Below are positions 342-16,804 of a stretch of 64,000 nt of DNA, one piece after another. A model generated the notes under the pieces. That model had not been told where the DNA came from, did not search any database, and saw only the letters and a list, made by a program, of their open reading frames with translations. How positions within the stretch are numbered: position 1 is the stretch's first letter; each line of letters opens with the position of its first letter. Origin of the DNA: Sulfurospirillum sp. (GTDB lineage: Bacteria > Campylobacterota > Campylobacteria > Campylobacterales > Arcobacteraceae); assembly GCA_030491005.1 (NCBI GenBank), contig JAKZMJ010000030.1, forward strand, positions 62,001-126,000, written 5' to 3'. The position numbers and the translations under genes were made by a program.

Positions 342-683
342 TTATTCTAATTCCAACTGCATTAGCATCAAATCTTCACCATCAATGACATCTAATTCCA
401 CACTTTTACATTTTGGACAAGCATAGTCACTTTTTTCTAATTCACTCGTTGTATCACAGTCTAAACATTTTATTTTTATTTTTTGAATATTTTGGATATA
501 CTCACAATCTTCACATATCGTACCTTCTTTAAAAGTATCAAATGCAGTTTTTAATAAATCAGGTTCAACTCCACTCATTACACCAATCTTTACAACAACT
601 CTTAAAACTTTTGTAGAATTATTAGCTTTAACATTTTCTTCACATTGGTCTAATAAACTTTGAACTATACTATATTCATGCAT
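342..683 (-). CDS. hypA: HypA, nickel insertion chaperone for [NiFe]-hydrogenase
   Basis: HypA delivers nickel, with HypB, to the hydrogenase large subunit precursor in the cytosol. The 113-residue protein has the usual family length. It starts MHEYSIV, which gives the conserved His2-Glu3 nickel site at the N terminus. The zinc domain has two Cys-x-x-Cys pairs, at about residues 73/76 and 89/92. In Campylobacterota HypA can also serve urease, but no urease genes are in view. It is the last gene of the hyp operon and its start overlaps the end of hypX by 8 bp, so the two are probably translationally coupled. Confidence 0.95.
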   Translation of the reverse strand: MHEYSIVQSLLDQCEENVKANNSTKVLRVVVKIGVMSGVEPDLLKTAFDTFKEGTICEDCEYIQNIQKIKIKCLDCDTTSELEKSDYACPKCKSVELDVIDGEDLMLMQLELE

Positions 684-2316
684 TTTTATTTTCCTTATAT
701 TTTAATCTTTTAGGTGTTGAAGTTTGACATATTTTATGAACAAATTCATATCTTAGTTTATGAAAGACAGAATCTTTATTCCAAAATTCATCATACATTA
801 TAGTTATTTCATTTTTACGATATTGTTCTATTTGTGATTGATTTTCTTCTAAATAATCTTCTTTATTCCAAAGTATATTATCAAACTCGTCTTCATTATG
901 TATTAGGTTTTGACAATAATTTTCTAAATCACTGTTATAAGTTTTTATACCAAAAACTTCATCTACTAAATTTATCTTTTTAGCTTTTAAAGCTGATATA
1001 GGTAAACAATTATCCAATAGTTTACTTGCAATATCTTTATTTACTCTTTTATATAATGAATAAATATGGTATTCACTCCCACTTAATCCTAATGATTTGT
1101 AATGTGGATTAAATATTGTTGTATTTGATGATATAACTTTATCACAAGCAGTTGCCAAAAAAACTCCGCCTGCACCTGCATTTTTACTAACAGATGCCAC
1201 TGTTATAACTTCACTAGCAAATATTATTGATTTTAATAAATCATTAATGGCATTGATATTACTCCAGCCATCTTCACCATTTTTTTTACTATCTTCTAAA
1301 ATATTTAGATTTATTCCATTAGAAAAGAAATCATCACCTCCCATAAGCACTAAAACTTTTACTTGAGTTTTAATATATTCAATAGCATATTTTAATCTCA
1401 TACATTGCTCAGCTCTAAATGCACCATTGTGAAAATTAAAATACAAATAAGCAATATCATTTTTTATATCACAAGATATTTCATAAAATGTTTTATAACT
1501 TTTATCAAATATCAAAGGCAATCTATGCTCTTTAATCCCTTTTAATTTGTTTTTTAATACATAAGTCGCAGGAAGCTTAAATTTATCTATCTCTTTTAAA
1601 TGACTTATCCAAATTGCACCATCAATAGTACCCAAACAAATTGCACCATCTCTTTTTGCAATTATCTTTTTTGGTTTATCACTATATAATTTTTCTTCTA
1701 TCCAAGCTCCAAATAAAAAGTACTTCATACCTAATATCTCATCTAAAATCCCAGGGAAACTATCAAGAATATTTATTTTATTAACTATCTCTTGTGATGT
1801 GTCTTTTTGCCAATTTATTTGTAAATTTGGTTTGTTATTTAGTGGATTTAATATTTGTTTTGTATAAATAGCATCTTTAAAATTTATAAACAAATCATCT
1901 AATGTAGCATAAAAACTATTGTTTACTTCATTTCTATATATACTTGCCTTTGTGGTTTGTCTTATCTTAAAATCATAATTTGTGTATATATCTCCACCAT
2001 CATATATATCATTAGCTTTTAAAATAACTACACCCCAATTTTTAAGACTAAGTGAATTTTCTAAACTATAAGCACCTCTATCACCTTTAATTCCTGGATG
2101 AAATATAAAAGTTGGATATACTTCATAAATCTCCTTAGATATAAAATCTTTTAAAAATGGGCATAAAATGATATCAGGCTTAAAAGTATTAATCTCTTCC
2201 ATTTTAGTGTTTGAATTTGAATACACAATATCAACGAAATAATCTTTATCTTTTAGATATGTATATGTTAATTGAGAAAGTGAATTAAATGATGTTACTA
2301 GAAGTGTTATTTTCAT
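676..2316 (-). CDS. hypX: HypX/HoxX-type hydrogenase maturation protein (formyl transferase + enoyl-CoA hydratase fold)
   Basis: HypX proteins make the active-site CO ligand from N10-formyl-tetrahydrofolate by way of formyl-CoA, which lets [NiFe]-hydrogenases mature in air. The 546-residue protein has both expected halves. The N-terminal formyltransferase-like part shows FNSLSQ (residues 10-15), HPG (73-75) and GDRG (78-81). A crotonase-like C-terminal part from about residue 280 shows NFHNGAFRAEQ, the oxyanion-type segment NAGAGGVFLATACD and the GSEYHIY segment. It lies between hypE and hypA, 9 bp after hypE and overlapping hypA by 8 bp. No strong ribosome binding site precedes its ATG. The assignment rests on recognised motifs; activity is inferred. 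Confidence 0.92.
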   Translation of the reverse strand: MKITLLVTSFNSLSQLTYTYLKDKDYFVDIVYSNSNTKMEEINTFKPDIILCPFLKDFISKEIYEVYPTFIFHPGIKGDRGAYSLENSLSLKNWGVVILKANDIYDGGDIYTNYDFKIRQTTKASIYRNEVNNSFYATLDDLFINFKDAIYTKQILNPLNNKPNLQINWQKDTSQEIVNKINILDSFPGILDEILGMKYFLFGAWIEEKLYSDKPKKIIAKRDGAICLGTIDGAIWISHLKEIDKFKLPATYVLKNKLKGIKEHRLPLIFDKSYKTFYEISCDIKNDIAYLYFNFHNGAFRAEQCMRLKYAIEYIKTQVKVLVLMGGDDFFSNGINLNILEDSKKNGEDGWSNINAINDLLKSIIFASEVITVASVSKNAGAGGVFLATACDKVISSNTTIFNPHYKSLGLSGSEYHIYSLYKRVNKDIASKLLDNCLPISALKAKKINLVDEVFGIKTYNSDLENYCQNLIHNEDEFDNILWNKEDYLEENQSQIEQYRKNEITIMYDEFWNKDSVFHKLRYEFVHKICQTSTPKRLKYKENKNA

Positions 2317-2325
2317 TATTGATTA

Positions 2326-3321
2326 TTAACAAATTCTAGGTAACAATTCTCCAGTTGGAGTATCTAAAAACCTTTGTGTTCCATACGGACTATTGAGTAT
2401 TACTTTTTTTTTGTGTTTATCACTTACGCTTGCTAAAATTACAGCATTCTCATTAAATTCTTGTAGTATTTCTAAAGCTTTTTGTGCATCTTCTTTTTTG
2501 ATAGCTAAACAAAATGTTCCTTCATTTGCCAAGCTCATAGCTTCAAAGCCTAGCATTTCACACATACCCTTTACTTCATTATTTACTGGTATTTTTTCTT
2601 CTTGCACTTCTATACAAATGTTACTTTGATTTGCCCATTCATTTAAAACAGCACTCACTCCACCTCTTGTAGCATCTCTTAAGGCTGTTATATTTATATT
2701 TTTATCAATTATTTTTTGAACTATCGGATATAAAGACCTACAATCACTTTGGATAGTATTTGACATCTCGATACCTTCTCGTGCTGCAAATATGCTTGCA
2801 CCATGACATCCTATATCACGACTTACTATTATCATATTATCTTTTGAGATATTATTTGAAGATATTCCATCTTTTTGGATTTCACCAATTCCAGTTGTGT
2901 TTATAATAATTTTATCAATTGTACCTTTTGGCATAACCTTTGTATCACCACTTACAATGATTGCTTCATTTATAGCTAGTTCTTCTTTTATAGATTGAAC
3001 GATTTTTTCTAAATCTCGTAAGGCAAAACCTTCTTCTATAACAAAACCAATAGTAAGGTACTTCGGTTTTGCACCCATCATCGCTAAGTCATTACAAGTT
3101 CCGCAAACTGCAAGCTTTCCTATATTTGCTCCTGCAAAAAATAGTGGGCTAATTGTAAAACTATCAGTACTCATAGCAATTTTACCATTTACATCTAAAA
3201 CTGCAGCATCTTCACTTTTACTTAATATATCATTCTTAAAGGCTTTATAAAAAACCTTTTTGATTAACTCATTATTTTCTTCTCCACCATTTCCATGGGC
3301 TAGTGTTATTGTTTTTTTCAT
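2326..3321 (-). CDS. hypE: HypE, carbamoyl dehydratase of cyanide-ligand synthesis
   Basis: HypE takes a carbamoyl group from HypF on its C-terminal cysteine and dehydrates it with ATP to a thiocyanate, the source of the Fe-CN ligands. The 331-residue protein begins with the family signature HGNGGEENN. It has the PurM/ThiL-type ATP-binding fold (for example SEDAAVLDV and STDSFTISP) and ends PRIC, with the acceptor Cys as the last residue. It lies 21 bp after hypD and 9 bp before hypX. All key features look intact. Confidence 0.96.
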   Translation of the reverse strand: MKKTITLAHGNGGEENNELIKKVFYKAFKNDILSKSEDAAVLDVNGKIAMSTDSFTISPLFFAGANIGKLAVCGTCNDLAMMGAKPKYLTIGFVIEEGFALRDLEKIVQSIKEELAINEAIIVSGDTKVMPKGTIDKIIINTTGIGEIQKDGISSNNISKDNMIIVSRDIGCHGASIFAAREGIEMSNTIQSDCRSLYPIVQKIIDKNINITALRDATRGGVSAVLNEWANQSNICIEVQEEKIPVNNEVKGMCEMLGFEAMSLANEGTFCLAIKKEDAQKALEILQEFNENAVILASVSDKHKKKVILNSPYGTQRFLDTPTGELLPRIC

Positions 3322-3342
3322 AATTTACCTTTTTAAAATTTA

Positions 3343-4491
3343 CTATTTTTTAAGTAAATTACCATATTTATAATATGCTGCGCAAGCACCTTCACTACTT
3401 ACCATACAAGAACCAAGTGGAGTGCTTGGTTTACAGGCTGTTCCAAATATTGTACACTCATCAGGATGTGCCATACCTCTTAAAATATCACCACAAATAC
3501 ATAATTTATGATCTTCGACTTCATCAATTGGTAATATATCTTTATATAAAAATTCAGCATCTAAAGAGTTAAATTCATCTTTTAATTTCAGTCCACTATC
3601 TGGTACATTACCAAGTCCTCGCCATTTAAATAATGATATTTTGTCAAAATATTTATTGATAATATTTTGAGCTGTAATATTTCCATGATAAGTAACCACT
3701 CTATTATATTGTATTTCCATTTCACATCTTTGTTGTGTAAATTGTTTAAGTATCATATAAATACCTTCCATCATATCTACAGGTTCAAATCCAGTTACAA
3801 CTACTGGCTTCTTGTACTGCTTTGGAAATTTATCATATATTTTAGCACCACTTATAACACTTACATGTGATGGTCCTAAAAAGGCATCTATTTGGTTGTT
3901 GTAACTATCTACATGTTCATCTCTACTATCAATTAATTCAACCATAACTTCAGGCACCGTTACATGATTGATGTGAAAAAATATATTTTTTATATCTCTT
4001 TTTATAACAGTATTTAATAATACTGCTGTCATAGGAGTCGTGGTTTCAAATCCTATTGCAAAAAAGATAACTTTTTTATATTTATTTTTATCTGCAATTT
4101 TTAAACATTCCATAGGTGAATATACATATCTAACATCAGCACCTTTTGCTCTTGCATCTTGTAAACTTCCATTAGTACCAGGTACTTTTATCATATCACC
4201 TAACGTTACTAATATAACATTTTCTTGCATTGCTAAAACATATGCATGATCGATTCTTTCTTTTGGCATAATACATATAGGGCAACCAGGACCATGAATA
4301 AACTTTACATTATCAGGCATTAATTGAGGTAAACCAAATTTCATAATTGTATGAGTATGTCCACCACATACTTCCATAATATTTATTGTTTTTTTTAATT
4401 TATTTGCTTCTTCTTGGATTAATTTAGCATAAGCTTTTATCGTAGAAGGATCTCTAAAATCATCATATAGATTTTTAAGTTCAAGTGCCAT
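3343..4491 (-). CDS. hypD: HypD, Fe(CN)2CO assembly scaffold
   Basis: HypD is an iron-sulfur protein that forms the scaffold complex with HypC on which the Fe(CN)2CO unit is built. The 382-residue protein contains the invariant motifs CGGHTHTIMKFG (Cys42), GPGCPICIMP (Cys70/Cys73) and a cysteine-rich C-terminal [4Fe-4S] region with CICGDILRG and GTACKPSTPLG. The length is normal for the family. It starts 2 bp after the end of hypC, so the two partners are made from one tightly packed message. Confidence 0.96.
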   Translation of the reverse strand: MALELKNLYDDFRDPSTIKAYAKLIQEEANKLKKTINIMEVCGGHTHTIMKFGLPQLMPDNVKFIHGPGCPICIMPKERIDHAYVLAMQENVILVTLGDMIKVPGTNGSLQDARAKGADVRYVYSPMECLKIADKNKYKKVIFFAIGFETTTPMTAVLLNTVIKRDIKNIFFHINHVTVPEVMVELIDSRDEHVDSYNNQIDAFLGPSHVSVISGAKIYDKFPKQYKKPVVVTGFEPVDMMEGIYMILKQFTQQRCEMEIQYNRVVTYHGNITAQNIINKYFDKISLFKWRGLGNVPDSGLKLKDEFNSLDAEFLYKDILPIDEVEDHKLCICGDILRGMAHPDECTIFGTACKPSTPLGSCMVSSEGACAAYYKYGNLLKK

Positions 4492-4493
4492 GT

Positions 4494-4784
4494 TTATAAT
4501 TCTCTATTTGTATATTCATCGTCTTCAAGTATTGCTTTTTTTCTATCTTCTTCATCCATGAGTTTCAATATCTCTTTGTATGTATCAATGGATGCCAATG
4601 CATCTTCTTCATCAATTTTATTCATCACAAATCCGATATGTAACAGTACATAATCTCCAAGCTTAACATCATTTACTTCCATTAAATCTAAAGCTGCATC
4701 TCTTTGAACACCCATTGTATCAACAGTTGCAATATTTGATTCTTTATTTATACTTACAACTTTACTAGGAATTGATAAACACAT
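4494..4784 (-). CDS. hypC: HypC, hydrogenase assembly chaperone
   Basis: HypC is a small chaperone that carries the iron-ligand unit with HypD and holds the large subunit precursor open until nickel is inserted. It starts MCLSIPSKVV, giving the essential N-terminal Cys2 after Met removal. The OB-fold core is followed by an acidic tail. At 96 residues it is slightly longer than many HypC proteins because of that tail. Its start codon overlaps the hypB stop by one base, a TAATG junction. Only one HypC/HupF-type chaperone is seen for the two hydrogenases in this window. Confidence 0.95.
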   Translation of the reverse strand: MCLSIPSKVVSINKESNIATVDTMGVQRDAALDLMEVNDVKLGDYVLLHIGFVMNKIDEEDALASIDTYKEILKLMDEEDRKKAILEDDEYTNREL

Positions 4785-5569
4785 TATCTCATCTCCATTT
4801 TAAACTTTATCCAAGAAGCAACTTTCTTTAAAGATTCTTCATCTTTAGTACTTACTTCAAGAATATCAACATTTGGTTTTAATTTTCTGGCAGTTTCTTT
4901 TTCTTGTTCCATATCATAATCAAAATAAGGTAATAAATCTGTTTTAGTAAATAAAATTAAATCAGCAACTCTAAACATAACAGGATATTTTGCAATTTTA
5001 TCTTCACCTTCTGGAATTGAAACTAGTACAATATTTAAGTGAGACCCAACATCATAAGAAGCAGGACATACTAAGTTTCCAACATTTTCAATAAAACAAA
5101 CATCTAATTTTTCCATATCTATATGATGTAAAGCTTTATGTACCATAAAAGCATCAAGATGACATGCTGATCCTGTTTGTATTTGATGAGCCTGAATGCC
5201 TTTGCTTTTTAGTCTATCTGCATCTCTACTAGTTTCTAAATCACCTTCAACAACCGCAAATTTAAAATCACAAATATCACTTAAATGTTCTAGTAAAGTA
5301 GTTTTACCACTTCCAGGACTAGACATAAGGTTTATACCAAGAACATTTTTATTTTCAAAATGTTCCCTATTATGAGCTGCTTCCTTATCATTTTTATCTA
5401 ATATTTTTGTAATAATATCAATAGTCTTTTTATCATTTAACTGAGGATTATCATGTAAATGTTTATGTGCACCTTGGTGTTCACTACTTGTTCCGTCATT
5501 ATTGTCATGAGAATGACTATGTTCTATTCTATCTTCATTTGTTATACTGCATCCACAATCTCTACACAT
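4784..5569 (-). CDS. hypB: HypB, GTPase for nickel insertion
   Basis: HypB is a SIMIBI-class GTPase that works with HypA to load nickel. I choose the ATG at 5569, 11 codons inside the longest frame, because it gives the family N terminus MCRDCGCS and is preceded by a strong AAGGAG. Cys2, Cys5 and Cys7 form the high-affinity nickel motif. A His-rich stretch follows (HSHSHD, then HQGAHKHLHD, residues 17-40), which is probably nickel storage. The P-loop is SPGSGKTT (about 84-91), and the GSACHLDA segment carries the G-domain metal-binding Cys and His. It is separated from hypF by 164 bp, the largest gap in the hyp block, so it may have its own promoter. Confidence 0.96.
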   Translation of the reverse strand: MCRDCGCSITNEDRIEHSHSHDNNDGTSSEHQGAHKHLHDNPQLNDKKTIDIITKILDKNDKEAAHNREHFENKNVLGINLMSSPGSGKTTLLEHLSDICDFKFAVVEGDLETSRDADRLKSKGIQAHQIQTGSACHLDAFMVHKALHHIDMEKLDVCFIENVGNLVCPASYDVGSHLNIVLVSIPEGEDKIAKYPVMFRVADLILFTKTDLLPYFDYDMEQEKETARKLKPNVDILEVSTKDEESLKKVASWIKFKMEMR

Positions 5570-5733
5570 TTTATCTCCTTTTGTTCTAATAATATATTGC
5601 ATTCAAGAGCAAGTGAAACTACACCAGCTCTTGCAAATATTCTTTTAACATTTTGTTCTCATTTTATATCAAATTCTTGTAAAGTTTTAGCAAAAATAAG
5701 AATTTATCCTAAATATTCCATATCTTACGTTTA
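5570..5733 (-). other. Intergenic gap between hypF and hypB with coding-like remnant
   Basis: This 164-bp gap interrupts an otherwise gapless operon. On the minus strand one frame reads coding-like sequence from about 5658 towards 5543, including IFARAGVVSLALECN, with a TGA in frame just before it and no good start codon. A 7-bp inverted repeat (5604-5610 with 5627-5633) lies in it. It could be a decayed gene, an internal promoter region, or chance. I see no convincing terminator. Confidence 0.3.
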
Positions 5734-7947
5734 TTATGAATTACTATTCATTATTTTATCTAAATAATAATAAATTTGCCCTAATGAAATTCCACCATCA
5801 TTTATTGAAGTTTCATTTTGATAAAAGTATTTTATTTGTTCTTTGTCTAAACTTTTTATTATAAGTTCCAATAAAGTTTTATTTTGAAAAACACCACCAC
5901 TTAAAATCACATCCATTTTTTCTACTTTAGATATATCAATTACAATGCTAACAAGAGTGTTCATAAATTTACTTATAAGTTTAGTATCAAAAAAATCATA
6001 CTCTATTTCAATTATATTATTTACTATTTTATAATTAAAGTTTTCAATGCATTTATTATCATAATTTACTTCACACAAAAGCCCAGTTTCACCTTCATAT
6101 GATTGATAGTGACAAATGTTTGCAAAACTAGATACAGCATCAAATAACCTACCAATAGAAGAGGTTGCAGGACAATTTAAATTTTTAGCCCAACTTTGAT
6201 GTAAAATATTAATTTCACTATTAGTAAAAGTTTTCAATAAATCAAAATTCATATTTGAAATTTCATCTAAAGTATATTTCTCAAATAGCATTGATAAAGC
6301 AATTCGTCTAGGTTCCTTTATAGCTTTTAATCCTCCCAAAAGTTTTATTTTCTTAAATGTGTATTTCCTATTATTTCCTACAAAAATTTCACCACCCCAA
6401 AGTGTTTTATCATCTCCATAACCAGTACCATCAAAGACAAAACCTAAGTAATCTTTTTTTAAACTATACTCTGCTTTACAAGAATATATATGTGCAAGAT
6501 GATGTTGTACTTGAAAATGTTCTACTTGAAAATGTTCTTTTGCCCATATTGTAGATACATATTGCGGATGTTTATCATATATTATAACATCAGCCTTAAA
6601 GTCATAAAAGCGAATAAAAGTTTCAATTGTTTGCTTGAAGAACTCAAAGGTTTCAATATCATCTAAATCGCCTATGTAAGGAGATGTTATTATTTTATTA
6701 TCAAAATATAATGATATAGAGTTTTTTGAATTAGCACCAAGTGCTAAAATATTTTTTTTAATTTTATATGAAGTAATAATTTCTTTTGGAGTATATCCAC
6801 GTGAAAGCCTTAAAACTTGTAGTTTTTTATTAACTATTTGCACGACACTATCATCAACAGCATTTAATATATCTCTATTGTAATCAACTACAAAATCTAC
6901 AAAAGGAAGTTTTTTAAGTATATCTTTTGAATTAGTTATAATAGGCTCACCATTAATATTTGCACTAGTAGCAATTATAGGGATTGATAAATATTCAAAT
7001 AATAGATGATGTAAAGCTGTATATGGTAATAAACAACCAATTTTATTGATATTTGGTGCAATATTAGAACTTAAATTATAATCATTTGATTTATTTAATA
7101 CAACTATAGGAGCTATATTACTTGTTAATAATTTTTCTTCTTCATTATTTAAAGTAGCAAATGAAGATATTTGCTCTATGTCCTTGCACATAATAGCCAA
7201 TGGCTTACTTGGACGATTTTTGTGTTTTCTTAAAGTATTAATGGTACTCGCATTCATGCTATCGCAAATTAAGTGAAATCCACCCATACCCTTAATAGCA
7301 CCAATTTTACCATTTTTTATGAGCGATGCAACATCTTCATAAGAAAAGGTTTCACTTTTTATACCTTTGATTGATAAAGTTACTTTTGGACCACAATTAT
7401 TACAGGCAGTAGGTTGAGCATGGTACCTTCTATTGCTAGGGTTATTATAATCTTCATCACATGATTGACACAATTTAAATTTTTTCATTGATGTATTAAT
7501 TCTATCATAAGGCACAGTTTGAATAATAGTATATCTAGGACCACAGTTAGTACAATTGATCGCAAAATATTTTTGATATTTACTATTAAAGAAATGTATT
7601 TCTAATAAACATATTGAGCAAATTTTAGTATCAGGAATAATCGATGCCGTTTTACAAGGAGAAACTCGAATTTTATTTTGTTCTATTATTTCAAACTGTC
7701 TCTTATGACAGATTTTTATTTCATTTATACTAATATAATCAATTTTTGCTAATGGTGGTAGTTTTACTAGCATTAGTTTTTCAAACTTTTCTAGTATTTT
7801 TTTTATTCCTTGTATCTCAATTACAACACCAGCTTCATCATTAAACACAAAACCATCTATTTTTAATTTTCTAGCAAGAGTAAAAATAAAAGGTCGAAAT
7901 CCAACACCTTGAACTTTGCCTTTTACTAAAATCTTTTTTCTAAGCAT
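5734..7947 (-). CDS. hypF: HypF, carbamoyltransferase of cyanide-ligand synthesis
   Basis: HypF converts carbamoyl phosphate and ATP to carbamoyl-AMP and transfers the carbamoyl group to the HypE C-terminal Cys. All domains are present in order in 737 residues. They are an acylphosphatase domain (KVQGVGFRPF near the start), two zinc fingers of Cys-x-x-Cys type (CSICLLE...CTNCGPRYT and CQSCDEDY...CNNCGPKVT), a YrdC-like domain (KGMGGFHL, SKPLAIMCKD) and a Kae1-like domain with the metal-binding QHHLAH, FDGTGYGDD and LSGGVFQNK. The start overlaps the end of hydE by 8 bp, joining the structural and maturation halves of the cluster. Confidence 0.96.
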   Translation of the reverse strand: MLRKKILVKGKVQGVGFRPFIFTLARKLKIDGFVFNDEAGVVIEIQGIKKILEKFEKLMLVKLPPLAKIDYISINEIKICHKRQFEIIEQNKIRVSPCKTASIIPDTKICSICLLEIHFFNSKYQKYFAINCTNCGPRYTIIQTVPYDRINTSMKKFKLCQSCDEDYNNPSNRRYHAQPTACNNCGPKVTLSIKGIKSETFSYEDVASLIKNGKIGAIKGMGGFHLICDSMNASTINTLRKHKNRPSKPLAIMCKDIEQISSFATLNNEEEKLLTSNIAPIVVLNKSNDYNLSSNIAPNINKIGCLLPYTALHHLLFEYLSIPIIATSANINGEPIITNSKDILKKLPFVDFVVDYNRDILNAVDDSVVQIVNKKLQVLRLSRGYTPKEIITSYKIKKNILALGANSKNSISLYFDNKIITSPYIGDLDDIETFEFFKQTIETFIRFYDFKADVIIYDKHPQYVSTIWAKEHFQVEHFQVQHHLAHIYSCKAEYSLKKDYLGFVFDGTGYGDDKTLWGGEIFVGNNRKYTFKKIKLLGGLKAIKEPRRIALSMLFEKYTLDEISNMNFDLLKTFTNSEINILHQSWAKNLNCPATSSIGRLFDAVSSFANICHYQSYEGETGLLCEVNYDNKCIENFNYKIVNNIIEIEYDFFDTKLISKFMNTLVSIVIDISKVEKMDVILSGGVFQNKTLLELIIKSLDKEQIKYFYQNETSINDGGISLGQIYYYLDKIMNSNS

Positions 7948-9352
7948 CTAAAGCATAATATTTTGAAAAATATGGATTGCTAGTATTAAATTTACTTAAA
8001 ATCCTACTATATAAAATACTATTTTCAAACATATCACCCATAATAATAAAGTTTTCTATATCTAATTTAGTTTTAAGTTGATTCATACTTGCAATACTCA
8101 TATCACCAAAAGCTTCAAATATACTATATGCTAAATAATGATCATCTGTTGCAGCTAACTTAAAACTCATGATAGAACCAAAAAATGATACAAAATCAAA
8201 ACCATATTCATCAAAATTCATATCAATTTTTAATCCACCATTTCCTCTAAATTCTAATGACTTATCACTTACAGCTTCAAAACTATGCTCTTTTAATTCT
8301 AGTATTACACTTAATGCTTCAAATATACTATAGTTTTCATTAGCTTCTAATAGTGTGATAGTATTATCATATTTTTTAATAAAATTATTTAGTAATTTAG
8401 ATTTATTTTCATCATTTTTCATATCAATGAATAACTTTTTTACATTAAAGTCTTGAAAACTTAAGACTTTTTGTGCTCCTTCATCATTAGATACCATAAA
8501 TGATATTCCATTACTTACACTAATATATGCACCAATTGCATTATTTTTATTACCCATTTCATTTGCAATATTTAAAAATCTATTAACTACTTTATCATCT
8601 GAATAGTCACTTAGTTTTGATGTGATTCTTGTATCTCTAATATACGATGTATTTTCTTGAATATTAATTATTTTACTTTCATTAATATCTTCAAAAAACA
8701 AATAGTCAATTTCACTATCTTCTGCATTAAGAGCAGCTAATGAACCTTTTACATTATGAGGTGATTTAACATTTATATAAGTTTTTCCAGTCATTTCTTT
8801 TAGTGATTGCTCTTTAATCGTAACTTTGATTGTTGGCTTTTCTATTGAAAATAATATCTTTTTTTCATTATCAGTAATTATGAATAAATCATCTACCTTG
8901 GAAGCTTTACACAATAATAATGTACAGCATTTACTATAATGAGGTGAATATAGTGTTAAATCTTGATTTTCTTTCATTTCTTCATTGCTATAATGGTTAC
9001 ATCTAATTGTATCATCAAGATATCTATTACTACTAGGTCTTGTTAAATCTTCTAAACATCTAAGGCACAATGCAATATTATATGAAGGTGATGTAAATGG
9101 TTTAGAATATACTATCTCATCAGTACGAAGTGTTTGTATATGTCCTAAAAATATTGAATGTGGTAAATATTTTGATGTTATTTTACTAAATAATTCAAGT
9201 TTTTTTGCATCACTATCATCTAAGATTAATATTATTTCATCTTTATTAAAAGTCACTGAACCTTCAATTTTTACCTCATTTTTAATATAGTTTAGAAAAC
9301 CTGCAAAATATTTATTTTCACTGTTATACTTTATTATTTGCTTGATTGCCAT
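7940..9352 (-). CDS. hydE: HydE-type hydrogenase accessory protein, degenerate HypF-like
   Basis: By position after hydA-hydB-hydC-hydD this is the HydE accessory protein of Campylobacterota. Helicobacter pylori HydE is reported to be needed for hydrogenase activity, but its biochemical role is not settled as far as I know. The 470-residue protein has a HypF-like zinc-finger segment (CLRCLEDLTRPSSNRYLDD and a later CNHYS). Near the C terminus FIIMGDMFENSILYSRIL lines up with the HypF segment LSGGVFQNK. It lacks the acylphosphatase signature, the GGFHL motif and the His-x-x-x-His metal site. I therefore infer a catalytically dead HypF paralogue. It overlaps hydD by 1 bp and hypF by 8 bp. Confidence 0.8.
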   Translation of the reverse strand: MAIKQIIKYNSENKYFAGFLNYIKNEVKIEGSVTFNKDEIILILDDSDAKKLELFSKITSKYLPHSIFLGHIQTLRTDEIVYSKPFTSPSYNIALCLRCLEDLTRPSSNRYLDDTIRCNHYSNEEMKENQDLTLYSPHYSKCCTLLLCKASKVDDLFIITDNEKKILFSIEKPTIKVTIKEQSLKEMTGKTYINVKSPHNVKGSLAALNAEDSEIDYLFFEDINESKIINIQENTSYIRDTRITSKLSDYSDDKVVNRFLNIANEMGNKNNAIGAYISVSNGISFMVSNDEGAQKVLSFQDFNVKKLFIDMKNDENKSKLLNNFIKKYDNTITLLEANENYSIFEALSVILELKEHSFEAVSDKSLEFRGNGGLKIDMNFDEYGFDFVSFFGSIMSFKLAATDDHYLAYSIFEAFGDMSIASMNQLKTKLDIENFIIMGDMFENSILYSRILSKFNTSNPYFSKYYALDA

Positions 9353-9909
9353 TATTTTAATCCTTCTAAATCTTTTCTTGCAACTGGGTTATCATATGCA
9401 TGAATTATCTCATCCAAACTTGTATAGCTGGCTTTTTTCTTATATGTAATTCCATAAGTTTCTATCTGAGTTAATGCAACCTTTATAAAATCTGGAAATT
9501 TATCATTAAGTTTAGGTGTTAATTTTGTAATTACTTCATCAATATTTTCTGGTACTATTCCTATAATATTAACATCAGCCATTCTTTCTAAAAGTGAACA
9601 AATCTCTAGCATTTCAACTATTTCTACTTCATGTGCAGATTGTTTATAAGAACCAAGTCCCATGAGTTCTTGTGCAGGTAAATTATATATTGCACCTGCC
9701 TCATCATCTTGCATTGTTATAGTATCAAGTATTACAACTTTATCATAGTCTTGATAATATACCATTAATTTAAAGCCTAATACACCGCCATCAACAAAAG
9801 TAATGTCATGATCAAATTCATAGTTTTCCTCTAAATACTTTTGAGCATAAACACCAATACCTTCATCTTGATAAATTATTGTTCCTGCGCCTACTATTGC
9901 TATTGTCAT
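9352..9909 (-). CDS. hydD: HydD, hydrogenase large-subunit maturation endopeptidase
   Basis: This 185-residue protein belongs to the HyaD/HybD/HupD endopeptidases, which cut the C-terminal peptide off the large subunit after nickel insertion. The N terminus, GAGTIIYQDEGIGVYA, is the variant form of the family motif GxGNxLxxDDGVG and keeps the acidic nickel ligand. VVILDT carries the conserved Asp and SAHEVEI the conserved His. Its expected substrate is HydB, which has a 20-residue tail after the last Cys motif. HupV-like 14076-15344 has no tail and should not need it. The start overlaps nothing upstream (37 bp after hydC) and the stop overlaps hydE. Confidence 0.92.
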   Translation of the reverse strand: MTIAIVGAGTIIYQDEGIGVYAQKYLEENYEFDHDITFVDGGVLGFKLMVYYQDYDKVVILDTITMQDDEAGAIYNLPAQELMGLGSYKQSAHEVEIVEMLEICSLLERMADVNIIGIVPENIDEVITKLTPKLNDKFPDFIKVALTQIETYGITYKKKASYTSLDEIIHAYDNPVARKDLEGLK

Positions 9910-9946
9910 ATATTACTTCTCCTTTATAAAAAGCCACTTATAAATA

Positions 9947-10657
9947 TTATTTTATATTCTCATCTTCTTTAACAAATTTACTTCCACCAACAACAATGGC
10001 AATATCAGCTTCTTTCCAAAAAATTGTTCTCCATACTTGATAATATATGTGAAATACTATCCATGAAAGTATCAAATACATACTCAAATGATGTGCATAC
10101 CTAACATCAATGTTAGTACCACCTGTAATATTTAAAGTCCAATCAGTCATTATGTGTAACATTGTTGGCCACCAGCTTCCAATTGAACTCATACCTGATG
10201 ATAAACCATGTACGTAAAGCTGAAGACCAGTTAATAACATCCAAACTAATAATAAATGAAATACTGTAAAAAATACAACATTAAAACTATCAGGATGACT
10301 ACTATTAAACTTTTTTCTTCTATTTAAAGTAATTAAATTTATAAGTACTTCTAAAAATTCTTTTAAATTTTTACTCGTTGGTATTAATTTTTTATATGCT
10401 TGTTCAAATCTCGAGAAGAAAAATAAATAACCAATTAGCATACTACTTACATCAAAAATTATTGCTGCATAAAGGTGTATAAGTCTATTCCATGCCATAA
10501 CAAATTTTGTAACAGCTGGATCAGAGATAAAACTTTGATAATATGGATGTCCTATGTATAAACCAGTAATAACTGCTGCAATCATACATAATGCGACAAG
10601 CCAATGATTTATTCTCATTACGGTTGTCATTCTTTCTATTTTTTTATAATTAGCCAT
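9947..10657 (-). CDS. hydC: HydC, cytochrome b subunit of uptake hydrogenase
   Basis: HydC anchors the HydAB heterodimer on the periplasmic side of the inner membrane and passes electrons from H2 through two b hemes to menaquinone. The 236-residue protein has four clear membrane segments (about residues 19-40, 60-83, 127-150 and 188-210). It has candidate heme His residues in NHWLVA, LIHLYA, FHLLLVW and HHLSMY/FHIYYQ. It fits the Ni/Fe-hydrogenase I b-type cytochrome family and follows hydB by 12 bp. Confidence 0.94.
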   Translation of the reverse strand: MANYKKIERMTTVMRINHWLVALCMIAAVITGLYIGHPYYQSFISDPAVTKFVMAWNRLIHLYAAIIFDVSSMLIGYLFFFSRFEQAYKKLIPTSKNLKEFLEVLINLITLNRRKKFNSSHPDSFNVVFFTVFHLLLVWMLLTGLQLYVHGLSSGMSSIGSWWPTMLHIMTDWTLNITGGTNIDVRYAHHLSMYLILSWIVFHIYYQVWRTIFWKEADIAIVVGGSKFVKEDENIK

Positions 10658-10669
10658 AATAACTCCTTA

Positions 10670-12427
10670 TTAAATATTACAATTAGGATTAACTTTAAAA
10701 CTACTAAGTTCACGACCTTTTGAATCAATAATATGTACAGCACAGGCAATACAAGGATCAAAAGAATGAATAGTTCTTAAAATTTCTAGTGGTTGTTCAG
10801 GATCAGCTACTTTAGTACCAATTAATGAAGATTCATATGCTCCCATTCTACCTTTATAGTCTCTTGGGGCAGCATTCCATGTTGATGGAACCACAGCTTG
10901 AAAATTTTTAACTTTACCATCTTCTATTACAATCCAGTGTCCTAAAGAACCTCTTGGAGCTTCAGCCATACCAAAACCTCTAGCACTTTTAGATACTTTA
11001 TCAAAATCAAACTCTGTCCATGTAGATTTATCTCCAGAGGCTACATTAGCAGCTAATTCATCAAGCCAATCAATCATTACATTTCCCATTACTTCAGTTT
11101 CAATAGCACGAGCAGCTGTTCGTCCAACTGTTGATAATATTACACTTGCAGGTGCTGCTTTCCCTAAACCTAATTGCTTTCCTAATTTTCCTAAGAATGA
11201 AGTTGCTGCACTTGTAATTCCTTCATGTTTGGCAGCCAAACCTACAACTATTCTAGCTAATGGTCCAACTTCCATTCTTATATCATCATATAATGGGGAC
11301 TTTATCCAAGAGTATTTTTCTTCAGTTTTTAAATATGCATAACCATCTTCTTTTTTCTCTAAACCTGTATACTTAGGTACAGTTTTACCTTCATATGGAT
11401 GAAGACCAACATCTGGTTCTCCTTTTCCATCGTACCATGAATGTGACACATCTTCTGTAATCTTAGTTTGATCTAACGGATGAAGTTTTGACAAATCTCC
11501 ATCTAGTACAATACCCCTAGGAAATAATAATTCTGAACTATAAAAATCATTATCATTTAATCTGAAATCACCATAAGACATATAATTTTTAAGTCCAGCT
11601 CCTGTACCATCTAGTGCTTCATCAGCATAAATAGTACCAGCCATTAAAATATCAGCCATATATGCATTTTTGATAAAGTCATTTATTTTAACTAAATGTG
11701 ATTTGAATTGTGCGATTCTTGCTGGGTTTTGAATGTCTTGGATACAAGTAACTCCACCAACAACTAAAGATTGAGGATGTGGCATTTTCCCACCAAAAAT
11801 AGCTTGCATTTTTGACATATCTCTTTGAATATCTAATGCCTGCAAATAATGTGCCACGGCAACTAAGTTTTGTTCAGGAGATAGTTTGTAATGTTTATTA
11901 CCCCAATAAGCATTTGAGAAAATCCCAAGTCTACCTTGTTCTACAAACTTTCCAACTCTTTCTTGAATTTTTTTTAAGTCTCCTTCTCCAGATCCATATG
12001 GAGTATCTGTCCATCTTAATGCTTCATTTGCAGCTAGTTTTGGGTCAGCTTTTAATGCTGAAATAATATCAACCCAGTCAAGAGCATGTAGGTGATAGAA
12101 GTGTACAACATGATCATGTAAATATAATGCACCTTGAATTAAGTTTCTTACGATTCTAGCATTTTTTGGAATCTTCACATTAAAAGCATCTTCTACAGCT
12201 TCTATACTTCTTTGATAATGTGTTCCAGTACAAACCCCACATATTCTCATAGTCATTAATCCTATATCTCTAGGATCTCTATTCTTAACAATTGTTTCAA
12301 TACCTCTAAACATTGTAGATGATGTATATGCATCAGTTATGATATTGTTTTCATCAATTATTGCTTCAACTCTTAAATGACCCTCAATTCTAGTTATTGG
12401 GTCAACTATTATATGTTTTTTACTCAT
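10670..12427 (-). CDS. hydB: HydB, uptake [NiFe]-hydrogenase large subunit
   Basis: HydB is the catalytic subunit with the NiFe(CN)2CO site. I take the ATG at 12427, preceded by AAAGGAA, rather than the start 33 bp upstream, because MSKKHIIVDPITRIEGHL is the normal N terminus and the longer start would overlap hydA. The L1 motif is RICGVCTGTH and the L2 motif is DPCIACAVH, so all four nickel/iron cysteines are present. A 20-residue tail follows the L2 His and should be removed by HydD. It would be exported with HydA through the Tat pathway. It lies 10 bp after hydA. The sequence looks like a group 1 respiratory enzyme. Confidence 0.97.
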   Translation of the reverse strand: MSKKHIIVDPITRIEGHLRVEAIIDENNIITDAYTSSTMFRGIETIVKNRDPRDIGLMTMRICGVCTGTHYQRSIEAVEDAFNVKIPKNARIVRNLIQGALYLHDHVVHFYHLHALDWVDIISALKADPKLAANEALRWTDTPYGSGEGDLKKIQERVGKFVEQGRLGIFSNAYWGNKHYKLSPEQNLVAVAHYLQALDIQRDMSKMQAIFGGKMPHPQSLVVGGVTCIQDIQNPARIAQFKSHLVKINDFIKNAYMADILMAGTIYADEALDGTGAGLKNYMSYGDFRLNDNDFYSSELLFPRGIVLDGDLSKLHPLDQTKITEDVSHSWYDGKGEPDVGLHPYEGKTVPKYTGLEKKEDGYAYLKTEEKYSWIKSPLYDDIRMEVGPLARIVVGLAAKHEGITSAATSFLGKLGKQLGLGKAAPASVILSTVGRTAARAIETEVMGNVMIDWLDELAANVASGDKSTWTEFDFDKVSKSARGFGMAEAPRGSLGHWIVIEDGKVKNFQAVVPSTWNAAPRDYKGRMGAYESSLIGTKVADPEQPLEILRTIHSFDPCIACAVHIIDSKGRELSSFKVNPNCNI

Positions 12428-12437
12428 TATTATTCCT

Positions 12438-13664
12438 TTATTCCGATTTTTTTCCAGCAATTACACTTGCTGCTGCATGAATAGCAATACCAATACCAGC
12501 TGCTGTAACTAGCCCTATACCAAATTCATCTACAGTTTTTTCTACTCCACCAAATGGGGCAAAGTTATTAAACTTCGTATCTGACATTGGTCTTTCTTGT
12601 GCAAATTTATCCCAAAATTGTGGTTCACTACAACCAATACAACCATGTCCTGCTCCAATTGGCCAGTTAGTTCCACTATTGTATTTTACAATTGAACAAT
12701 TATTAAAAGTCATGGGACCTTTACAACCCATTTTGTATAAACAGAAATTATTTTCAGCACCTTCATCTCCCCATTCTTCAACAAATTCACCTGCATCAAA
12801 ATGTCCTCTTCTTTCACAGTTATCATGAATCCTATAACCAAATGCAAATTTTGGTCTATTAAGATGATCTAACTCAGGAATTTGACCTGTTAACACATAG
12901 TGTAAAATTGTACCTGTAATATTAGCTGGGTTTGCAGGACAAGCAGGAATATTAATAATCGCTTTATCTTTTATTATATCTTGTACTCCAACTGCACCAG
13001 TTGGATTTGGTGCAGCTGCTGGAATTCCACCAAATGTAGCACAGGTTCCAACTGCAACAACAGCTGCACAATTTTTTGCTACTCTTTTTAGATGCGCTTC
13101 AAATGTTTCACCATTCGCACCAATAGTTCCATATAAACCATTCATAGCTCTAGGTATCGAACCTTCCACTAAACAAAGATACTTACCTTTAAAAGTTTCC
13201 ATAGCAGCATTTAAATGTTCTTCTGCAGCATGACCAGCTGCTGCCATTAATGTTTCATTAAATTCTAAAGAAATCGTTTCTAAAATTAGCTCATCAATTG
13301 TAGGCGAATCTGATCGTAGTAGTGCTTCTGAATTTCCAGCACAATCTTGTAATTCAATCCAAATAACAGGAACTCTATTCATTAATTCAGCTGCTTTTAC
13401 AACTAAAGGTGTAAAAGAAGCTGGTATCATAAGTGCAGCACATGCAGCACTTGCCCATTTCATAAAGTCCCTTCTTGTTAAACCTTCAGTTTCAAGTAAA
13501 TGATCAATTGATATTTTACTAGCAGCTGGTGTATTTTCAAGTTCAATTAATCTATCTTCCATTTGTTTGGCAAGTGTATTATAATATTCATCACCACGAT
13601 TAGTATTAACTCTTGTCCCTTTTGCACTAAACATAGCACTTAGGGCATCTCTTCTATCAACCAT
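12438..13664 (-). CDS. hydA: HydA, uptake [NiFe]-hydrogenase small subunit with Tat signal
   Basis: HydA carries three iron-sulfur clusters from the active site to HydC. The 408-residue precursor has a twin-arginine signal, TRRDFMKW, unusually deep at Arg64-Arg65, and a second Arg pair at residues 4-5. A C-terminal hydrophobic helix (GLVTAAGIGIAIHAAASVIAG) is the membrane anchor. In the proximal-cluster motif the usual CxGC is CAGN (residues 108-111), so one Cys is Asn. The other cluster ligands are visible: GTCATFGG, PACPANP, IHDNCERRGH, KMGCKGP, NNCSI and GCIGCSEP. The ATG at 13664 has AAAGGAA upstream. It is the first structural gene after a 411-bp gap. Confidence 0.96.
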   Translation of the reverse strand: MVDRRDALSAMFSAKGTRVNTNRGDEYYNTLAKQMEDRLIELENTPAASKISIDHLLETEGLTRRDFMKWASAACAALMIPASFTPLVVKAAELMNRVPVIWIELQDCAGNSEALLRSDSPTIDELILETISLEFNETLMAAAGHAAEEHLNAAMETFKGKYLCLVEGSIPRAMNGLYGTIGANGETFEAHLKRVAKNCAAVVAVGTCATFGGIPAAAPNPTGAVGVQDIIKDKAIINIPACPANPANITGTILHYVLTGQIPELDHLNRPKFAFGYRIHDNCERRGHFDAGEFVEEWGDEGAENNFCLYKMGCKGPMTFNNCSIVKYNSGTNWPIGAGHGCIGCSEPQFWDKFAQERPMSDTKFNNFAPFGGVEKTVDEFGIGLVTAAGIGIAIHAAASVIAGKKSE

Positions 13665-13687: not shown

Positions 13688-13701
13688 AATGAATATTCAT
13701 T
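13688..13701. promoter_or_regulatory. Palindrome upstream of hydA, candidate TetR-family operator
   Basis: AATGAATATTCATT is a perfect 14-bp palindrome, followed by a further TCAT repeat of the half-site. It ends 24 bp before the hydA ATG. ATGAAT/ATTCAT half-sites are common in TetR-family operators, and a TetR-type gene is at 16211-16804. That this protein binds here is inference. Confidence 0.45.
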
Positions 13702-13713
13702 CATATTTTAAAT

Positions 13714-13719
13714 ATTATC
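13714..13719 (-). promoter_or_regulatory. Possible -10 box of hydA
   Basis: GATAAT on the minus strand would place the transcript start near 13707, just upstream of the palindrome at 13688-13701. A better consensus TATAAT lies at 13785-13790 and would give a leader of about 115 nt. No clear -35 is seen for either, which is usual in Campylobacterota. Confidence 0.3.
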
Positions 13720-14055: not shown

Positions 14056-14080
14056 ATTAATATAAATAGTTTATATTAAT
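14056..14080 (-). terminator. Perfect inverted repeat overlapping the hupV-like stop codon
   Basis: An 11-bp perfect inverted repeat (14056-14066 with 14070-14080) has a 3-nt loop TAG and includes the stop codon of the large-subunit gene. The stem is pure A/T and no U-run follows on the minus strand, so it is at best a weak terminator. It may protect the mRNA 3' end. Confidence 0.35.
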
Positions 14081-15344
14081 GTGTGGTACAAACGGAGCAA
14101 ACATCAAATGACTTAAATGCTATTTCTGCTAGTTTAACATTGTTAAGTCCACACATTGCCTTTTGTGAAATTCCAAGGTTTTCTCGTGTACCATTGGATA
14201 AGTTCCATTGTGTAGGAGTGATAATATCATATTTTGAAATTATTCCATTTTTTAAAGTAACTTTATGTATTAAACTACCTCTTGCTGCTTCAACAGCACT
14301 TTGCCCAAAACCTGTCATATTTGATATATCAATATCAGGTTTTATATATGATACTTCATTTAAATCTATTTCTTTTATTAGTTTTTTACAATGATTTAAA
14401 AGTTGCGGTATTTCATATGTTCGTGCAATAATTCTTGTAAAAATACTATCAGAGTATTTTCTATGTGCATCTTTTATTAATGGTATTTTATTTATCATAG
14501 CACGACTAAGTGGACCTACTTCATAATATTTACCTTTGTACATAACATTTTTTGCTTTTGATTTAATATTTTCAAATTCATTCACATTATTTATAATAAC
14601 ATTCTTTGTTACATTGGTTTTTAATGCTTTTCCACTATTAAAAAAGCTATTAGATCCAAAAGCGATAAATCTATCAAAACTTTTTCCAATATTTTGCCAA
14701 TTTTGAGTTTTAATATATTTTAATAAAGTAGGTAAATCCCCATCTCTATTTAATAACTCATAAACATTTTCATACATTTTAGAATTTTTATCATTTCTAG
14801 TGATGACAGTATCTTCAAAATACTTTATAGTTTCATTTATGTAAGATTCAACTTTAATTAAATCCATAGTTGTAATATCACAATTCACACCTCCAACAAT
14901 TGCATAAGAGTTATGTGGATATTGACCTGCAATAGTTGCTATTGCTTTTGCCATTATTTGTGATGGTTTTGTGGCTTTTAATATATATTGTTTATATCCA
15001 AATAAAGGTAATAAATTTAAATAAAACCATTTAAAATGGTTTTGAATTAATTCAAAATTTAAAGTTAATTCTCTCAAAAGTTTTGCTTTTTGAGTGATTT
15101 GTATATCTTCATAACAATCTTCAAGAGCTTGAACAGTGGCAATGAGATGTGCTTGACCACAAATTCCACAAACTCTAGGATTAATCACTAAAGCGTCAAG
15201 AGCTGGTTTGTTTTCTAAGATTTGTTCTATATTCCTCGTATTCATAAACTCTATATCAACAAAATCTATTTTTTTATTTTTACCAAAAGAAAAATTTAAT
15301 TTTGCTTCGCCTTCAATTTTCTCAATAAGTTTAATTATGTTCAA
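14076..15344 (-). CDS. Cytosolic [NiFe]-hydrogenase large subunit, HupV/HoxC-like (H2 sensor type)
   Basis: This 422-residue protein has the L1 motif RVCGICGQAH and the L2 motif DVCSVCTTH, so the four nickel/iron cysteines are kept. It ends directly at that His. The missing C-terminal peptide is the hallmark of regulatory, H2-sensing hydrogenases (HupV/HoxC), which skip protease maturation. The N terminus, KLIEKIEGEAKLNF, fits the family and requires a TTG start at 15344, which overlaps the stop of the small-subunit gene (TTGA). It forms an operon with that gene and the TetR-type gene. A sensory role is inferred; a low-activity cytosolic uptake enzyme is the alternative. Confidence 0.85.
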   Translation of the reverse strand: MNIIKLIEKIEGEAKLNFSFGKNKKIDFVDIEFMNTRNIEQILENKPALDALVINPRVCGICGQAHLIATVQALEDCYEDIQITQKAKLLRELTLNFELIQNHFKWFYLNLLPLFGYKQYILKATKPSQIMAKAIATIAGQYPHNSYAIVGGVNCDITTMDLIKVESYINETIKYFEDTVITRNDKNSKMYENVYELLNRDGDLPTLLKYIKTQNWQNIGKSFDRFIAFGSNSFFNSGKALKTNVTKNVIINNVNEFENIKSKAKNVMYKGKYYEVGPLSRAMINKIPLIKDAHRKYSDSIFTRIIARTYEIPQLLNHCKKLIKEIDLNEVSYIKPDIDISNMTGFGQSAVEAARGSLIHKVTLKNGIISKYDIITPTQWNLSNGTRENLGISQKAMCGLNNVKLAEIAFKSFDVCSVCTTH

Positions 15345-16210
15345 AATAAATCTTCTTCTAATCTTTGTATTTTAAATGATTTAGTTACACCTGCTAATGT
15401 TAGATAAGCTCTTTTACCAACACCTAAGGGTAAGTTCTGTGGGATACCCATATTTTTTTTAGTATTAAATAAATCTAATCGTGGAAAAGTAGGTTCTGTG
15501 CAACCATGACAAGGTTCTCCTGATCTAGTCTTAGAATTTACTTCATTCCAAAGTATTTTATTGCAACTTCCTTGTGTATATGGTCCTTGACAACCATGGT
15601 CATAGAACATACATCCTTCTTTTTCACCAAAATTATGATTATCAATTTTATACTCAAAATACTCATTTCTTGTGCATCCGTTATGAATTGTATATGAAAA
15701 ATACTCTTTTGGTCTTAGAAACTTATCAACTTTTATTTGTATTTCGTTTTTAATACTAAATAAAGTATTTACTAGTTTTTCTGGATGTAATGGACAGCCA
15801 CTTATGCTTATAGTTTTTTCCTTTAAACTTGAAAATAAAAATGTTGATTTGTCTTCATCAAAATGTAAGCCTGTAGTATAATTAAATTTACTTTGTCTAA
15901 ATATACCACCAAATGTTGCACAAGTTCCAGCAGTGATAATTTTTTTTACTTTTGAAGAATATTTATTTATAATATTTATTATAGGTACATCTGCTTTTTT
16001 ATATTCAGGAGATATTGCACCTTCTAAAATCATAATATCACAAGGTATTTCTTTATTTATTATATCATCTAACGTATAGATACTATCAATAATAGGATGA
16101 TAAATAAACTCAAAGTTTTCTAAAAATTGTTCAAGTAATGAATAATTTAAAAAAGAATGTGCATTTCCATTACATCCTATAGCATTTATCCATAAGACTT
16201 GTGTTTTCAT
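15341..16210 (-). CDS. Cytosolic [NiFe]-hydrogenase small subunit, HupU/HoxB-like
   Basis: The 289-residue protein starts directly with MKTQVLWINAIGC and has no twin-arginine signal and no C-terminal membrane helix, so it is cytosolic. Iron-sulfur ligands are visible in GTCATFGG, SGCPLHPE, IHNGCTRNE, EGCMFYDHGCQGP, GSCNKILW and PCHGCTEP. The first motif is GCNGN instead of GCxGC, so the second proximal-cluster Cys is Asn, as in HydA of this window. The start codon abuts the TetR stop (TAAATG) and the stop overlaps the large subunit start, so the three genes are one translational unit. The function as H2 sensor subunit is inferred from layout. Confidence 0.85.
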   Translation of the reverse strand: MKTQVLWINAIGCNGNAHSFLNYSLLEQFLENFEFIYHPIIDSIYTLDDIINKEIPCDIMILEGAISPEYKKADVPIINIINKYSSKVKKIITAGTCATFGGIFRQSKFNYTTGLHFDEDKSTFLFSSLKEKTISISGCPLHPEKLVNTLFSIKNEIQIKVDKFLRPKEYFSYTIHNGCTRNEYFEYKIDNHNFGEKEGCMFYDHGCQGPYTQGSCNKILWNEVNSKTRSGEPCHGCTEPTFPRLDLFNTKKNMGIPQNLPLGVGKRAYLTLAGVTKSFKIQRLEEDLF

Positions 16211-16804
16211 TTATACACTCAATGCTTTATAAATATTATAACTCACATCATCTATATAATTATCTAAATCATTTGGTAATACCTTCTCCCCTTTTAGAAA
16301 AACCATACCACCTAAATATCCCATAAATAAACCAAAAGCACTAAAGAAATCTTGATCTCTTAAATCACCAGCTTTTACACCTTCTTCAAAATAAATCATA
16401 ATTTCTGTTACAAATTCATTTACACAAATCATACCCTCACAACCATCTTTAAAAACTTCTCTATTTGATAAAAAAATTCTTAAAAAGTAATCAATTATTT
16501 CTGGTCTTAATTTTGCAGTTTTAAAATAAATTTCAATTATCTTTCGTGTTTTTTCTTCTGTACTAATATCTAATTCATTTATAGCTTTTAGTTTATTACC
16601 TAAATAAATTGAAATAAAAGATATAATCTCTTTTGCTAAAATATCTTTAGATTTAAAATAATTATACATATTTCCAACACTCATAGATAATTCTTTTGCA
16701 ATATCAGGAATAGTAGTATTATAAAAACCTTTTTTTGAAAAAAGTTCCAAAGAAGATTGAATAATTTGATTCTTTTTTTCTTGTTTTTTATCTGTAATTT
16801 TCAA
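16211..16804 (-). CDS. TetR/AcrR-family regulator leading the sensor-hydrogenase operon
   Basis: The 197-residue protein has an N-terminal TetR helix-turn-helix (residues about 26-55: TTIPDIAKELSMSVGNMYNYF) and a helical C-terminal ligand/dimer domain without recognisable cofactor motifs. The only in-frame start is TTG at 16804, and an out-of-frame ATG with 9 codons precedes it. It is first in an operon with hydrogenase small and large subunits, with zero spacing. Known H2-sensing hydrogenases signal to a histidine kinase and an NtrC-type regulator; none is here. I infer that this TetR protein controls the hyd/hyp genes, possibly under control of the sensor. Confidence 0.88.
   Translation of the reverse strand: MKITDKKQEKKNQIIQSSLELFSKKGFYNTTIPDIAKELSMSVGNMYNYFKSKDILAKEIISFISIYLGNKLKAINELDISTEEKTRKIIEIYFKTAKLRPEIIDYFLRIFLSNREVFKDGCEGMICVNEFVTEIMIYFEEGVKAGDLRDQDFFSAFGLFMGYLGGMVFLKGEKVLPNDLDNYIDDVSYNIYKALSV

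Follow-up and report, generated by a model that had tools for sequence, protein, structure and literature searches.

The sensor hydrogenases HupUV and HoxBC (group 2b of the [NiFe] hydrogenases) signal through the kinase HupT or HoxJ and the NtrC-type activator HupR or HoxA. Another cytosolic enzyme, group 2d of Campylobacterota (huaSL, hupSL or 'group II'), lies in a fixed order beside the group 1b hydAB genes and has been described so far with an unclear role. The A. butzleri enzyme at this kind of locus was classed as group 2d (PMC12286921), and in Sulfurospirillum multivorans a TetR-type gene was noted next to hupSL and taken as the hupSL repressor (PMC5357620). At vents, in sulfidic water and in animal hosts, Campylobacterota rank among the major oxidisers of H2, and the tuning of their hydrogenase genes to this gas is poorly understood. 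Here we describe such a locus in a stretch of 64,000 nucleotides, hereafter the window, from Sulfurospirillum sp. (positions 62,001 to 126,000 of contig JAKZMJ010000030.1; assembly GCA_030491005.1, 2.69 Mb, 97% complete). It has the same order beside hydAB, and where group 2b sensors work with a kinase and an NtrC-type activator, a TetR-family repressor gene (tetR) stands instead, followed by the genes of a small and a large hydrogenase subunit. An original prediction, made from the letters of the window, proposed that this hydrogenase acts on the TetR protein as a one-component H2 sensor. The three genes form a conserved module, and its TetR gene is accompanied across genomes by a palindromic operator in the hydA promoter, through which such a switch could work.

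A TetR gene and a group 2d-like hydrogenase in one cassette

All three genes are encoded on the minus strand, as predicted. The TetR-family repressor of 197 amino acids (16211..16804) is recognized by PF00440 (TetR_N, E=3e-13), and its AlphaFold2 model (mean pLDDT 88) has nine helices in a normal TetR fold, with TetR folds among the nearest structures. It is followed by the cytosolic small subunit of 289 amino acids (15341..16210; PF01058 and PF14720) and the large subunit of 422 amino acids (14076..15344; PF00374), which the original prediction had named HupU and HupV and which are group 2d-like; NCBIfam models agree with the Pfam assignments of all three genes. The junctions are as tight as had been described: tetR meets the small-subunit gene at TAA|ATG (16213-16208), and the two subunit genes share TTGA (15344-15341), where TTG is a guessed start codon for the large subunit, the subunit genes of relatives overlapping by about 4-35 bp. 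The small subunit begins with MKTQVLWINAIGCNG and has no twin-arginine signal, and the large subunit ends in SFDVCSVCTTH with no maturation tail, so that both subunits are as the prediction had them; all of 60 relatives of the large subunit also stop within the final ligand motif. The hydA start (13664) lies 411 bp downstream of the large-subunit gene, and thus the hyd operon, upstream of which the cassette had correctly been placed, has its own intergenic region.

The cassette is not a chance arrangement but a conserved module, because it recurs across Campylobacterales. When 299 genomes of this order were searched with the large subunit and then with TetR, 133 had both, two the large subunit alone, seven TetR alone and 157 neither (Fisher p = 2e-73). 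Both genomes with only the large subunit are cut at contig ends. Three of the seven with only TetR also end at contig borders with a partial small subunit visible, two have weak or paralogous matches, and the last two, G148 and G232 (loci L146 and L147), contain a genuine TetR without a group 2d hydrogenase. These natural deletions are useful for separating the roles of TetR and the hydrogenase. The order tetR-hupU-hupV, which the prediction had proposed as its check, was found in nearly all of the about 56 loci where the contig permits the test, with genes that abut or overlap, and of 80 further named loci, 77 have hupU after tetR. The exceptions are L172, where tetR is near another hydrogenase operon, L233, which has no hydrogenase gene within 6 kb, and L238, a metagenome-assembled genome in which hypX stands directly after the TetR gene (7090-9319) in place of the hydrogenase subunits. 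In Sulfurimonas paralvinellae, the whole tetR-hupUV-hydAB unit is located on a 49.8-kb plasmid (L247, 5406-11306) near an integrase, and may be mobile.

Pairwise distances between TetR proteins track those of both hydrogenase subunits (rho 0.69 and 0.72), nearly as the subunits track each other (0.74), and correlate little with those of the adjacent HydA (0.14). The cassette therefore acts as a single unit, which has been joined to two different types of hydA. The genomes listed by the searches at class and phylum level all belong to this order, so that these counts hold for Campylobacterales; the best 80 matches of a scan of genome contigs were all Campylobacterota-like. Two bins titled as a Thermoplasmata archaeon (L189) and Helicobacter pylori (L186) carry the Campylobacterota cassette and are probably contaminated or mislabelled. 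No relatives of the cassette were found among the viral contigs searched.

The hydrogenase itself probably can react with H2, because all Ni-Fe and Fe-S ligands are retained: Cys59, Cys62, Cys416 and Cys419 of the large subunit occur in 60 of 60 relatives, and the Fe-S cysteines of the small subunit are conserved in at least 57 of 58. The label of an H2 sensor of the HupUV type holds for the cytosolic location and the tail-less large subunit, the two group 2b features that the enzyme shares, and otherwise by analogy only. The proximal motif of the small subunit is CxGN (CNGN, its second position taken by Asn) instead of the CxGC of HoxB and the four-Cys proximal cluster of group 2b, although the one relative checked in family f15 (L085) does have CxGC; the L1 motif of the large subunit has His66 where group 2b has Gln (RxCGxCxxxQ); and with 289 amino acids against 347 in HoxB and 331 in HupU, the small subunit lacks the C-terminal extension. 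A small tree separates the Campylobacterota proteins from HoxBC as well as from Huc-type enzymes. Membership in group 2b is ruled out by the tree, these three features and the missing kinase and activator, so that the cassette enzyme could at most function like HupUV/HoxBC. From the locus order beside hydAB, it is very probably the group 2d enzyme of Campylobacterota.

A candidate palindromic operator in the hydA promoter

An unbiased count of gapped dyads in 51 regions upstream of hydA returned TGAAT-N4-ATTCA in 28 and AATGA-N4-TCATT in 27 of them, with about none expected. The aligned sites give the consensus TGAATGANTATTCATT, just after the hydA -10 box. In the window, the candidate operator TGAATGAATATTCATT occupies 13688..13703, 23 bp upstream of the hydA ATG, and it is the sole AATGANTATTCATT in the 2.69-Mb assembly. 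Directly upstream of it, a putative -10 region (13705..13719, minus strand; GATAAT / TAAAAT) was assigned by inspection. Across 98 sites, a -10-like hexamer starts most often 8 bp before the operator, and the operator usually lies 24-50 bp from the hydA start codon, right behind this hexamer. In one genus, which from gene order alone is probably Sulfurospirillum, the distance is about 90 bp, and here too the operator comes after a -10-like box.

The operator was found in 50 of 57 hydA promoters of the discovery set (0.14 expected from shuffles) and in 41 of 42 of an independent set (0.09 expected), by which a chance palindrome is ruled out. It is absent from the hydA promoters of cassette-free genomes, both by the same automatic procedure (0/21) and by direct scoring (0/28). 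Among these controls are genomes from the carriers' own genera and hydA proteins that reach 84% identity to that of the window, and the 28 promoters rule out that the palindrome is part of any Campylobacterota hydA promoter. The consensus was drawn from promoters of related species, a concern that is limited by the independent set and the within-genus controls. The operator precedes two different hydA types. It also occurs at hydA genes far from the cassette (six loci), and several Arcobacteraceae have it in front of their second hydA as well; four additional copies of hydA in carrier genomes are without it. The cassette loci, 2.2 Mb in total, contain 93 strict sites, and at least 77 of these immediately precede hydA. 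G148 and G232, which have kept TetR and lost the hydrogenase, retain the operator. Since the site follows the presence of tetR, TetR is the putative protein that binds it, and we are confident that TetR controls hydA. It likely acts as a repressor rather than an activator, because the site sits at the start of transcription. A dyad search upstream of tetR gave nothing above the AT-rich background, and hence no sign of autoregulation through this operator. A search of the literature, with preprints outside its scope, turned up neither a hydA operator nor a link between a TetR protein and that promoter. The original prediction knew of no description of such a one-component alternative; the adjacency of TetR had already been noted in S. 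multivorans (PMC5357620), and the operator is the element that is new in this analysis.

In several hydA promoters of the Sulfurovum/Nitratifractor type, two operators are spaced about 44-45 bp apart, corresponding to four helical turns (six loci). Another palindrome in the window, TGAATTACTATTCA, is located at 5737-5750, where hypF ends and hypB is still about 135 bp away, and may be a chance occurrence or a weak extra site.

The genes behind the operator are all on the minus strand. hydA (12438..13664; TIGR00391, 455 bits), the first gene of the presumed regulated operon, encodes a group 1b-type small subunit with a twin-arginine signal, whose proximal cluster has CxGN (CAGN) where CxxC is usual, as in the cytosolic small subunit. 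It is followed by hydB (10670..12424; PF00374, 709 bits) for a group 1b-type large subunit with a C-terminal tail, which together with the cassette large subunit makes up the only two [NiFe] large subunits of PF00374 in the genome. The rest of the presumed regulated cluster (342..10657) comprises hydC, hydD, hydE-like, hypF, hypB, hypC, hypD, hypE, hypX-like and hypA. The HypX/HoxX-like gene (676-2316), with formyl-transferase and enoyl-CoA-hydratase domains, suggests synthesis of the CO ligand under air. On the other side of the cassette, upstream of tetR (17000-18987), are genes for a radical SAM/SPASM protein and an overlapping 371-amino-acid protein without a Pfam match.

A proposed H2 switch and other readings

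In the switch that we propose, TetR would block transcription of the hydABC(-hyp) operon by binding the palindrome, which lies between the -10 box of hydA and its ribosome-binding site, and the co-encoded group 2d-type hydrogenase would give TetR its sensory input. This hydrogenase would oxidise H2 where available and, by contact or electron transfer, make TetR leave the operator. Such an H2 switch would do without both the HupT/HoxJ kinase and the HupR/HoxA activator. We regard this switch as a whole as probable. That H2 is the signal and is read through the group 2d hydrogenase is likewise likely. The original prediction is partly supported: the co-inherited module, the missing relay, the operator and the H2 induction of hydAB in A. 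butzleri (PMC12286921) bear it out, and the action of the hydrogenase on TetR is its putative part.

The receiving end may be a pair of cysteines in TetR. Cys122 and Cys127 frame a CEGMIC loop (codons at 16424..16441, minus strand) that is more conserved than the rest of the protein: the mean pairwise identity is 63% in the DNA-binding domain, 64% in the remainder and 76% over residues 112-137. All TetR orthologues compared, 54 of 54 and 80 of 80, have both cysteines, some of the 80 loci being from the same genomes as the 54 sequences, and they are retained in G148 and G232. The loop is modelled at low confidence (pLDDT 57-70), which would fit a part that becomes ordered upon binding something. 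TetR paralogues (about 40-49% identity) were also considered as partners. Most of them are away from hydrogenase genes and those mostly lack the Cys pair there, and in three genomes one or more paralogues are near hydrogenase operons. A redox or metal switch at these cysteines is a tentative idea. The same holds for its more specific form, in which the group 2d enzyme would reduce the loop, or build a metal or Fe-S centre on it, so that TetR frees the hydA operator. We know of no hydrogenase-to-repressor redox relay in H2 sensing.

The cytosolic, tail-less subunits resemble sensor hydrogenases, and could be read by a HupT/HoxJ kinase and a HupR/HoxA regulator encoded elsewhere in the genome. 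However, a Cupriavidus HoxJ query against the whole genome found generic kinase domains only, a HoxA query found receiver domains without a sigma-54 AAA+ domain, neither gave a match in the window, and PF00158 produced only weak AAA+ cross-matches on the genome (best 1e-5). A hidden HoxJ/HoxA pair was thus searched for, and no full-length relative came up. A. butzleri, too, is without RpoN and NtrB/NtrC (PMC2147049). For this assembly, 97% complete, such a relay is largely refuted already, and we give it almost no weight; the prediction, which had seen no such pair in the window, was right in this, and the pair elsewhere in the genome that by its own account would have spoken against it did not come up. 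It has also been proposed that the group 2d enzyme supplies low-potential reductant or takes part in energy conversion (PMC2628731, PMC7952632). Then it would work in the cytosol as an uptake enzyme, reducing a low-potential carrier for CO2 fixation, and the main target of repression by TetR would be hupSL, as was suggested for S. multivorans (PMC5357620); all catalytic residues are indeed retained. Against this, the conserved operator is at hydA and none is upstream of tetR-hupSL, and the operon has no carrier gene. A. butzleri has group 2d genes without key genes of the reductive tricarboxylic acid cycle, its group 2d mRNA drops with H2 (PMC12286921), and the protein was not found in S. multivorans proteomes (PMC6242987). 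We consider this reading improbable.

TetR might instead repress hydA in response to another signal, such as a FadR-type metabolite, or redox state or O2 sensed by its own Cys pair, and the hydrogenase would merely be co-inherited, for example as a metabolic enzyme needed under the same conditions. B. subtilis FadR is among the nearest solved structures (TM about 0.8), the protein has weak NCBIfam similarity to BetI/FadR-type models, and direct redox sensing by the cysteines is conceivable. G148 and G232 also keep TetR, both cysteines and the operator without the group 2d subunits. But these are only two among about 138 genomes, the history that TetR shares with the subunits is almost as close as that between the subunits, and its ligand domain is as conserved as its DNA-binding domain, which is unusual for a pocket adapting to metabolites. 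hydAB is also induced by H2 in A. butzleri (PMC12286921), and we consider this alternative unlikely, though less so than the metabolic one.

Several observations nevertheless weigh against the switch proposed here. In G148 and G232, control of hydA by TetR must be independent of the hydrogenase. In S. multivorans, hydAB is transcribed constitutively, with no rise of its mRNA on H2, for which the authors of that study suggested a missing H2 sensor (PMC5357620), and hupL mRNA and protein are hardly found (PMC5357620, PMC6242987). These data are a real objection, part of which could be explained by self-made H2. In A. butzleri hDNRA1, RNA-seq showed both hydAB sets up and the group 2d genes down with H2 (PMC12286921), but the conditions compared differ in donor, with H2 plus acetate in one and acetate alone in the other, and the operator in its own hydA promoters is putative. 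In Sulfurospirillum sp. hDNRA2, hydAB is expressed equally on H2 and on formate, and formate yields H2. The proposed switch does not account for the drop in group 2d mRNA on H2, since no operator was found in front of tetR. The group II genes were transcribed at a low level in mangrove isolates (PMC12403661), which could fit a sensor. Finally, no path of electron transfer to TetR is known to us. Even so, a conserved cassette with a defined operator is a testable circuit that would give the puzzling group 2d hydrogenase a likely role, and it may provide a compact H2-responsive promoter for engineering.

Relation to known hydrogenases and repressors

The cassette shares with HupUV/HoxBC the cytosolic two-subunit make-up, the tail-less large subunit, the position beside a regulator and the hyd/hyp genes and, probably, control of an uptake hydrogenase by H2. 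The closest solved small subunit belongs to the Huc-type group 2a enzyme of Mycobacterium (7uur, 7utd; 155 bits) and has the same CxGN motif; Huc carries [3Fe-4S] clusters. Large subunits of the group 2a type have a tail and an adjoining protease gene, whereas in the cassette the subunits are shorter, the large one is tail-less and a TetR gene is present. On the side of the repressor, B. subtilis FadR resembles the TetR of the window in fold, and the FadR operator is a similar palindrome, TGAATGA...TCATTCA, for which a literature search on that string gave no paper. However, FadR binds acyl-CoA and controls fatty-acid genes, whereas in the TetR of the window a pair of cysteines is invariant, and nearly all likely sites of this protein belong to hydA.

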